Part shown: positions 8,576 to 11,500 of the stretch, in pieces
How the letters are laid out: each line of letters starts with the position of its first letter
Position numbering within the stretch: position 1 is the first letter of the stretch
Source of the DNA: Patagioenas fasciata
Lineage: Eukaryota; Chordata; Aves; Columbiformes; Columbidae
Direction of reading: 5' to 3'
Length of the DNA: 64,000 bases
Assembly (NCBI RefSeq): GCF_037038585.1
Contig: NC_092526.1
Location: 41,365,501 to 41,429,500, forward strand
The notes under the pieces: generated by a model
Seen by the model: only the letters and a program-made list of their open reading frames with translations
Told to the model about the DNA's origin: nothing
Database searches by the model: none
Program-made: the position numbers and the translations under genes

Positions 8576-11500
8576 ATGGAGCTGGCTGGGTCCCTCAGCT
8601 TCCTCCTGCTCTTCCTCCTCCTCCTCCTCCTCCTGCTGCTGCTGCTGGGGAAGGGGCGGCAGGGGGGGCACCCACTGCCCCCCGGGCCCCCCGCGCTGCC
8701 GCTGCTGGGAAACCTGCTGCAGCTGTCCCCAACCAGGACCCTGGAGGGGCTGCTCAAGGTGAGGACATGGGGGGACATGGGAACCTGCTGCAGCTGTCCC
8801 CAACCAGGACCCTAAAGGGGCTGCTCAAGGTGGGGACATCATGGGGACATGGGGAAACATGGCTGGGACATGGGAACCTGCTGCAGCTGTCCCCAACCCG
8901 GATCCTAGAGGGGCTGCTCCAGGTGGGGACATGAAGACATGGGGGGACACAGGGGGTTCCTGCAGGTGCTGCTCAAGGTGAGGGGAGCAGGGGTGTTTGA
9001 GTGTCACCCAGTGTCCCCTCAGCTCAGCCAGACGTACAATCCCATGTTCCTGGTATGGTTGGGGATACGGCAGGTGGGTGGGTGACGCAGGTGTCCCCTG
9101 GTGTCTCCAGCTCAGTGAGAACTACGGGCCAATGTTCATGATGTGGCAGGGGACACAGCGGGTGGGTGGGTGACACAGTGGGTGACACGACTGTCCGTGG
9201 TGTCCCCAGCTCAGTGAGAAGTATGGCCCTGTGTTCACGGTGTGGCTAGGGACCCGGCGAGTGCTGGTGCTCTGTGGACACGCCGCAGTGCGCGAGGCGC
9301 TGGTGGACAATGCCGAGGCCTTCGCCGGGCGCGGACGCATACCCACCGTGGAGAGCACCTTCCATGGCCACGGTGCGCGGGGACACTGAGGGTGGGACCC
9401 CAATGGTGGCACACTGACAGTGGTTGGACCCCCATGATATTCTCCCAATGCAGGGTGCTGACCCTCTCAAGGGTGCTACCCACCCCCTATGGGTGCTGAC
9501 GCCCCTGTCCTCTCCCCATGGGTGCTGCCCCCCCCATGTCCCCTCCCCTGGGATGCTGTTTCCCCAAGGGTGCTGAACCCCCTGTGTCTCCAGGGGTGGT
9601 TTTCGCCAATGGGGAGCGCTGGCGGCAGCTGCGCCGCTTCTCGCTCTCAGTGCTGCGGGACTTCGGGATGGGCCGGAAAAGCATCGAGAGCCGCATCCAG
9701 GAGGAGGCGCAAGCGCTGCTGAAGGAACTGCAAGACACCCAGGGTACGGGGGGGGTCAGGGTGGGGGACACACGCCCCTGGGTGCTGACACCCCCCAAGA
9801 ACAGCCCCACTGCCCCCGAGAAGTGGTTTGACCCCCACGTACCCGGTGGGCTGCACTTCGGTGGGGGGGCTCAGCGGGATTGGAGGGAGGCGCACCCCTG
9901 GGTGCTGACACCCCCAAAAAATCCTCCCACCTCCCCACTTTGACTCTCCTGTACCTACTGAGCTGCACTCAGGTTATGGAGTGGGGGGTGAGGTGGTTTG
10001 GGGAGGTCTGGGTGGGTGGGGGGGTCACCCTTGGGTGCTGATCGCCTCCCCAAAAAACCCCCTTTCCCCCAGAGAAGCCGTTTGACCCCACGTACCTGCT
10101 GAGCTGCGCTGTGTCCAACATCATCTGCTCAATCGTGTTCGGGAACCGCTTCGACTATCGCGACAGCGAGTTCCTGGAGCTGCTGCGGCTCATGAACGAG
10201 AGTTTCCGGGAGCTCAGCACCCCCTGGGCGCAGGTGGGTCGACTGGGGGTGGGGGGTGATGATGGGGCTGCAATGAGGGGAGTGGGGCAGTTAACTGGGG
10301 GATCCGGGGGTGCGATGATGAACCAGAGCTTCTGGGAGCACCCAGTTTCTGGGTGCATGTGGGGTCAGGGGGTGCATGAGCTGAGTTGGGGGGGGGTCGG
10401 AGGAGGTTTGATGATGAACAACAGGTTTTGGGAGCTCAGTACCTTGAGTGCAGGTGCAACCTGGGGGGTGCAAGGGGTGGATGGGGGAGTTCTGGGAGTG
10501 TAATAGGGGTGAAGTAGGGGGGGATGCAATAGGTGGAGGTGTCAGCGGGTGCAATGACTTTTTGGGAACTCAGCACCCCTGGGAGCAGCTGGGACCCCAG
10601 GGGCTGCAAGGGGTGGCTGGGGGCTGTCCAGGGAGTGTGTGGGGGACTGTGTCACGGTGGTGCAGTGGGGGGACTACAGGGAGGTGTAATGGGGGCTGTT
10701 GGGGGTGCAATGATGATCAAGAGTTTCTGGACCTCCCAGTCTCTGGGTGCAGGTGGGACAGGTGCGATGCAATGGGTGGATGGGGGGGGCTGGCAGCTTC
10801 CTGGGATGCAGAGTGGTGTCTGTGGGAGGACGAGTGACATCCCTGTACCCCCCACCAGGTATATGACATGGCGGAGACGCTGATGCAGCATGTGCCGGGC
10901 CCGCACCGGCGCATCCCGGTGATGCTGGGGCAGATGCGCAGCTTCATCGCGCGGAGGGTGAAGGACAATGCGGCCTCACTGCAGCCCGGGGCCCCCCGTG
11001 ACTTCATTGACTGCTTCCTGCAGCAGATGGAGAAGGTGGGGAGGCCCCTTTGTACCGAGTTTACTTGTGCAAAACTTCAGATGCTCCTGTGCACATGGGG
11101 AGATCTCCTCCACCTTGGGGTGCTCCTCTGTGCCTGGGTTGATCTCCTGCACGCCAGGGGAGGTGCTTGCAACCTAGAGGGGATCACGTGCACGCTGGGA
11201 TGTTCCTTTGCACACAGAGTGCTCCTGTTCACCCACATCCCCTGAGCACCCTGGGGTGATGCCCTGCACCCAGAGGTGTTCATGCGCACCCAGCTCACTT
11301 GTGCAAAACCTGGGGTGCTTCTGTGCACTATGGGGCGCTCCCTGCACCTCCACACTCCATGTATGTGTGTCCCCCAAGGAAAAGTCAAACCCCTCATCAG
11401 AGTTCACGCTGGAGAACCTGGAGCTCACCACCCTCAACCTCTTCTTCGCTGGCACCGAGACCGTCAGCTCCACTCTACGCTACGGCTTCCTCATGCTCAT

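Follow-up and report, generated by a model that had tools for sequence, protein, structure and literature searches.

The window, by which we mean the whole 64,000-nucleotide stretch of Patagioenas fasciata DNA that was analysed (G000:C10:41365501-41429500, on contig C10 of a 1.45-Gb genome), contains a CYP2G1-like detoxification-enzyme gene at positions 8576-12851 of the forward strand. The exon model comprises nine exons separated by eight GT..AG introns, and its product is an open frame of 495 codons. This product is listed as 100% identical to the NCBI protein 'cytochrome P450 2G1-like' of the same species (P0001), from which an exact comparison distinguishes it at one position, residue 118; the NCBI protein fits the normal junctions, and the solved structures scoring best by sequence against the gene product are CYP2B4 and CYP2A6. 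The exon lengths resemble the usual CYP2 pattern, hence a new intron is not evident in this gene. Introns 1-4 have a GC content of 61-65%.

Exons of the CYP2G1-like gene (window positions, exon model)
8576-8758, + strand: exon 1, 183 nt; the edge that is repeated is 8711-8758, the final 48 nt
9210-9372, + strand: exon 2, 163 nt; copies A and B derive from it
9594-9743, + strand: exon 3, 150 nt; edge copies not found
10073-10233, + strand: exon 4, 161 nt; both edges repeated
10859-11035, + strand: exon 5, 177 nt; edge copies not found
11379-11520, + strand: exon 6, 142 nt; edge copies not found
11605-11792, + strand: exon 7, 188 nt; edge copies not found
12459-12600, + strand: exon 8, 142 nt; edge copies not found
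12670-12851, + strand: exon 9, 182 nt; edge copies not found

Upstream of the gene, repeat units of 20-51 bp (such as TGGGGACATACACCAGGGCA) form a degenerate array at positions 8001-8430, with a GGGGACAT motif resembling the intronic part of the exon-1 units described below. Intron 7 carries a minisatellite of 14-bp CTGCTCCATGCATA-type units at 11804-12419, and the 3' flank another, of 18/36-bp units, at 13056-13367; exon-edge content was not detectable in either by the edge comparisons or the shuffle test set out below. A 19/39-bp unit (CTCCTGGGTCCCT...) forms very large arrays at 44632-52979 and 57312-64000, which are reversed in orientation at approximately 45.1-47.0 kb and interrupted at approximately 53-57.3 kb. 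On the reverse strand, an olfactory-receptor sequence at 35516-36593 extends over two reading frames, with Pfam 7tm_4 matched in both pieces, and is probably a pseudogene, while 1287-3184 has weak matches to retroviral-like protease and RNase H, two of the three falling below curated cut-offs. Going by a motif, the sequence at 14768-15400 is a candidate avian CR1 element. No Rfam family matched the window at the gathering threshold.

Repeated exon edges in introns 1, 3 and 4

The initial annotation described intron 1 as built from copies of the exon edges that flank it, and the coordinates it gave were exact. The 3' edge of exon 1 (8711-8758, 48 nt) is repeated with 46/48 and 44/48 matches, and the 5' edge of exon 2 (from 9210) with 39/51 and 33/51 in the nearer and farther copies respectively, self-similarity being present at each of the corresponding offsets. 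The units are arranged head-to-tail, at spacings of 71 and 93 nt for exon 1, and 88 and 99 nt for exon 2.

Copies in intron 1
8782-8829, + strand: copy c1 of the exon-1 3' edge (46/48); donor GTGGGG; an in-frame, ATG-started ORF (8767-8829, 21 residues) passes through it
8875-8922, + strand: copy c2 of the exon-1 3' edge (44/48); donor GTGGGG
8959-8983, + strand: partial copy of the exon-1 3' edge (23/25); donor AAG|GTGAGG
9023-9073, + strand: copy A of the exon-2 5' edge (33/51); acceptor ...CAG before, followed by new donor CAG|GTGGGT; open frame of 51 nt, reading LSQTY
9111-9161, + strand: copy B of the exon-2 5' edge (39/51); acceptor ...CAG before, donor CGG|GTGGGT after; 51 nt, frame open

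Intron 1 therefore contains the exon-1 edge copied twice in full and once in part, together with two copies of the exon-2 edge, such that approximately 217 of its 451 nt are exon-derived (48+48+19+51+51, from the coordinates); much of the remainder belongs to these same units, as their intronic portion. The full exon-1 copies are 92-96% identical to the exon edge, and the exon-2 copies 65-76%. The original observation is real, and larger than first noted, as a looser alignment scan found that the 5' edge of exon 4 is repeated twice in intron 3, and its 3' edge four times in intron 4, meaning three introns of the one gene are affected.

Copies of the exon-4 edges in introns 3 and 4
9797-9857, + strand: 5' edge copy (47/61), carrying 20 nt of the preceding intron; no AG at the aligned acceptor
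9917-9969, + strand: second, degenerate 5' edge copy (42/64); no AG at the aligned acceptor
10303-10363, + strand: 3' edge copy (47/71); donor now CAT|GTGGGG
10414-10456, + strand: 3' edge copy (34/45); donor weak (CAG|GTGCAA), with its GT kept
10534-10593, + strand: 3' edge copy (49/67); donor GT lost (CAG|CTGGGA)
10692-10757, + strand: 3' edge copy (48/68); donor CAG|GTGGGA kept

The gene thus holds eleven edge copies, one of them partial, and all 11 alignments cross the junction. The exon-4 copies are too degenerate for their ends to be fixed. The looser scan returned 20 alignments, from which the 11 with scores of 39-108 were counted as copies; the nine scoring 26-31 were treated as background, eight of them lying at edges negative in the shuffle test and one being a weak third match to the exon-2 edge.

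The association between edges and their own introns is specific. When the 18 edges of the nine exons, each taken as 60 nt, were compared with the eight introns and two flanks, only four of the 180 comparisons scored above 30 (89, 49, 41 and 36, with the next best at 23), and each of these paired an edge with its own adjacent intron: the 3' edge of exon 1, the 5' edge of exon 2, and the 5' and 3' edges of exon 4, being two edges of each type. Against intron 1, the exon 1 and exon 2 edges scored 89 and 49, the best shuffles reaching 28 and 27. The adjacent intron was dinucleotide-shuffled 500 times for each internal edge, and no shuffle reached the observed score at any of these four of the 16 internal edges, on which basis chance similarity or GC bias was rejected; at the other 12, between 30 and 486 of the 500 shuffles reached it. 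Potential G-quadruplex motifs, allowing loops of up to 12 nt on the coding strand, start at 11, 20 and 32 sites in the copy-bearing introns 1, 3 and 4, and at none in introns 2, 5 and 7, the scan having covered these six introns. A link with such motifs may not hold, as the trypsin-family case described below has a C-rich coding strand.

Paralogues, age and splice signals

A DNA search of the genome returned 44 matches, consisting of the window itself, one at 99%, two that form a third copy (83-87%), and 40 short matches of no more than approximately 70 bases. The three CYP2G copies lie within approximately 57 kb, with the third, paralogue B, between the arms of an inverted repeat of at least 14 kb that bears the CYP2G1-like gene on both arms. 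The twin arm (G000:C10:41320001-41334126) aligns with window 1-14128 over 14,156 bases at 99.05% identity, and as this alignment reaches the edge of both the window and the DNA compared with it, the arm may be longer. The twin gene, approximately 49 kb from that in the window, encodes P0001 exactly. At 451 nt its intron 1 matches that of the window in length, with five substitutions and no gaps between them, and it likewise has two full exon-1 copies.

Paralogue B keeps exons 1-3, 8 and 9, with no match to exons 4-7 at this locus, and is probably a pseudogene, since its remaining exons joined as they stand hold three stops. Its intron 1 contains five full copies of the exon-1 edge against two in the window, a difference between paralogues rather than alleles, alongside a partial exon-1 copy and the same two exon-2 copies. 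Correspondingly, this intron is 712 nt long in paralogue B and 451 nt in the window, a difference of 261 nt, whereas intron 2, which lacks edge copies, is 221 nt in both; intron 1 has therefore changed in length by whole units. Within paralogue B, c1 is identical to c4 over 48 nt, and c2 differs from c3 by one base, which is what recent duplication of a multi-unit block would predict. The identity of c1 and c4 points to growth in paralogue B, although part of the difference between two and five copies could reflect loss in the lineage of the window gene. This longer array supports the proposal that intron 1 grew at both ends through tandem duplications that crossed its splice junctions, as do the head-to-tail units that each span exon edge, splice site and intron.

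These loci also bear on two other origins for the copies. Repeat arrays misassemble easily, and introns of 61-65% GC might generate similarity by chance in simple sequence; yet the copies are diverged from one another, score above all 500 shuffles, and recur in the third paralogue and in the twin, albeit that the latter is a recent duplicate and its array not of independent origin. Copies are also present in predicted proteins of another species, Columba guinea. An assembly artefact was rejected on the evidence of the twin, paralogue B and the Columba predictions, and an artefactual or chance origin is barely conceivable. Alternatively, entire exons could have been duplicated, or tandem CYP2G genes could have undergone unequal crossing over, with erosion then reducing the products to edges. 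Three CYP2G copies within approximately 57 kb make such exchange possible, and their copy numbers do differ. However, both full exon-1 copies share a start point, and both exon-2 copies an approximate end point; the spacings are as short as 71-99 nt, the units carry intron on their other side, and the copies in paralogue B are equally short. Duplication of whole exons was rejected, as the copies are edges only, and we regard the erosion of larger duplicates as highly improbable.

The copies differ in age. Those of exon 1 diverge from the exon by 4-8%, and those of exon 2 by 24-35%. Copy A reads LSQTY where the pigeon exon 2 reads LSEKY, and this position was examined in 27 of 120 listed proteins (26 from birds, and P0030; two Apteryx entries were left out). 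A motif search placed 26 of the 27, with P0067 (Columba livia) unplaced, and P0038, a fusion model, placed through its second P450 part. Among these 26, T occurs in 12 and QT in four, while EK is found in four pigeon proteins and the emu. This pattern fits, rather than proves, the possibility that copy A is a fossil of an older exon 2. In Columba guinea, predicted protein P0022 has a c1-like copy as its first exon, beginning MGGHGHLLQLSPTWTLEGLLK and identical at 18/21 residues to the ORF through c1 of the window, and P0026 contains a 24-residue stretch identical at 23/24 to the first intron-4 copy (translated from 10312). On the basis of these predictions, c1 and the first intron-4 copy probably predate the split between Columba and Patagioenas. 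They also constitute an annotation warning, as one Columba guinea model begins within a copy and the second runs through one.

Splice signals are kept in the three exon-1 copies and two exon-2 copies, whereas AG is absent from both 5' copies of exon 4, and GT from one of its four 3' copies. When the 170 GT sites in the introns of the gene were ranked using an informal donor weight matrix, the top five all lay in copies (8977, 9073, 8829, 10752 and 8922), led by the AAG|GTGAGG of the partial exon-1 copy (8977), and these five outscored several authentic donors of the gene. With an acceptor, a donor and an open 51-nt frame, the exon-2 copies would be latent microexons. Hence it could be argued that the copies are used, either with the 51-nt exon-2 copies serving as in-frame cassette microexons, or with c1 as an alternative first exon, resulting in a P450 without its membrane anchor. 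Both exon-2 copies in the window have the AG, GT and open frame this requires, the informal matrix places the five best intronic GT sites within copies, and one Columba guinea model begins in a c1-like copy. However, that model is a database prediction, the acceptors of the exon-1 copies are weak (7/17 pyrimidines, compared to 11-14 in authentic acceptors), and the copies have drifted more than the exon itself. Between the window and paralogue B, copy A differs at 7/51 positions and copy B at 5/51, compared with 3/51 for the real exon-2 edge, and copy A of paralogue B has acquired an in-frame stop, which speaks against conserved independent exons. Mutually exclusive or cassette exons would be whole, with conserved frames; these are edges only. 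Therefore use of the copies is very unlikely. Their drift fits with neutrality, as far as can be judged by comparison with a paralogue that is itself probably dead, and splicing would be expected to proceed at the normal junctions.

The edge of exon 1 itself is unchanged between the window and paralogue B (0/48 differences), although the 60 nt before it differ at 5/60 and exon 2 at 15/163. This identity might stem from conversion of the exon by its copies or the reverse, from constraint, or from chance; a strictly passive array would not predict it.

Probable turnover of junction-spanning minisatellites

The most probable interpretation, in which we have considerable confidence, is that these introns carry junction-spanning minisatellites ('mirages'), the turnover of which captures the edges of exons to generate largely neutral copies. 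Firstly, a block comprising the end of an exon, its splice site and part of the intron would be duplicated in tandem, probably where exon and intron share short matches within GC-rich DNA prone to repeats. The full exon-1 copies start at a point where exon and intron both read TGGGAA, and the exon-2 copies share an approximate end point of their own, running into GTGGGTGGGTGAC repeats. Secondly, the number of copies in the array would shift by unequal exchange or replication slippage. Thirdly, the authentic junction would stay outermost, beside its exon, so that the reading frame would be kept, and each new copy would lengthen the intron. Fourthly, copies would drift, some losing a splice signal or gaining a stop, while older ones may keep fossil exon states. 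Such a course, with short matches guiding the duplication and unequal exchange or slippage then acting on the array, would explain the position, order and changing number of the copies.

The initial annotation referred to minisatellites in a GC-rich region, and had both class and setting right. It also proposed slippage or unequal crossing over, with the array seeded by coding sequence. The choice between these routes is best treated as conjecture, slippage, unequal crossing over and template switching all predicting this anatomy, as is the seeding, because the intron around the copies in the trypsin-family case is itself a 9-bp minisatellite.

That case emerged from a wider survey, in which a local copy was defined by a blastn match with E < 1e-3 and at least 15 nt inside the exon. 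P450 segments were represented by tblastn intervals rather than curated exons; 157 were obtained after merging, and the 152 reaching at least 40 bits were tested (145 elsewhere and seven in the window), with five dropped. Local copies were detected by this test in none of the 145 segments from 20 other P450-bearing stretches of the genome, and hence a general habit of P450 genes is not supported; in the same run, four of the seven window segments were positive, one of them through a repeat in intron 5. Applied to the true exons of the window, the test was positive for three of nine (exons 1, 2 and 4), missing copy A of exon 2, one of two 5' copies of exon 4, and three of its four 3' copies. 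Since most of the older copies in the window escape it, the test controls for young arrays only, and old arrays elsewhere could have been missed. Furthermore, the P450 stretches are 38-49% GC, so composition and gene family are confounded. Another region of the genome, G000:C6:19616073-19717824, has eleven matches to the same P450 exon within approximately 100 kb, all on the + strand, and is a tandem P450 cluster.

Among trypsin-family exons on small contigs, where GC content around the exons was 0.46-0.72, the blastn test was positive for one of 21 in nine stretches; these were picked for small contigs and closely spaced exons, rather than at random, and no rate is derivable from so small a sample. 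The positive exon is on contig C44 (exon match 492252-492383, the limits being deduced from the trypsin match and an AG). An 89-nt segment spanning its acceptor and 5' edge is repeated twice upstream, at 492059-492147 (89/89) and 491930-492018 (87/89), and within this region (G000:C44:491930-492303) the copies lie inside a CCCCATTGT 9-bp minisatellite. Their match to the exon ends at ...CCCTGC, beyond which they run on as CCCCATTG repeats. This is the same architecture in another gene family and, judging from identity, a much younger one.

Relation to known boundary repeats

Similar structures are known from amphioxus. Two reports (PMC3087553; PMC3902484) describe mirages as minisatellites in which each unit crosses from exon into intron sequence, at the 5' or the 3' boundary, with the copies lying in the intron, many but not all of them keeping AG or GT, and their number varying between haplotypes. 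They also report somatic instability for Adh3, with normal mRNA splicing undisturbed, and RT-PCR that suggested normal splicing of globins (PMC3087553; PMC3902484). As in these accounts, the pigeon units are tandem and span the boundary, at four edges and in eleven copies including the partial one; AG or GT is kept in many cases, rather than all; and both 5' and 3' boundaries are affected. Hence, at the level of sequence, the pigeon repeats have the structure of a mirage. They differ from the lancelet mirages as there described in occurring in a bird, at both edges of one intron and in three introns of one gene, and in that copy number differs between paralogues (two against five, with two in the twin) rather than haplotypes.

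According to one study, paralogues arising from human segmental duplications carry variable internal tandem repeats where exon and intron meet (De Grassi and Ciccarelli 2009, PMC2812944). The pigeon arrays are likewise of minisatellite type, and their number also differs between recent paralogues. However, the human repeats are described there as creating novel introns or alternative transcripts, with RNA support, whereas those in the pigeon lengthen existing introns. Introns have also reportedly arisen from tandem arrays, or from AG|GT duplication, a scheme attributed to Rogers in 1989 and Zhuo et al. in 2007. That scheme shares with the pigeon gene the tandem duplication of a segment containing a splice site, placing signals in new positions; yet as the pigeon gene lacks an evident new intron position, its copies represent only possible raw material.

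No report of such repeats in birds was recognised among the openly licensed papers listed, judged by titles and the openings of abstracts. The kind of repeat is known from lancelets, and it is the involvement of both edges of one intron, the spread over three introns, the longer array of a paralogue, and the second, independent case in the same genome that characterise the pigeon. We consider it possible, if rather doubtful, that in GC-rich bird genes intronic minisatellites have captured exon edges repeatedly and continue to do so, which would lengthen introns, seed strong decoy splice sites and in-frame microexons, and feed back on the exon by conversion, such that intron size and splice-site choice would evolve through array turnover. 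The growth or gain of introns by tandem duplication across splice sites is usually deduced from old, blurred traces. By comparison, one pigeon gene displays the process at several ages, in the units of exon 1, those of exon 2, the degenerate units of exon 4, and the five-copy array of a paralogue. Hence GC-rich bird genes may be tractable systems for asking how often the edges of exons enter introns, and whether the spliceosome uses the copies.
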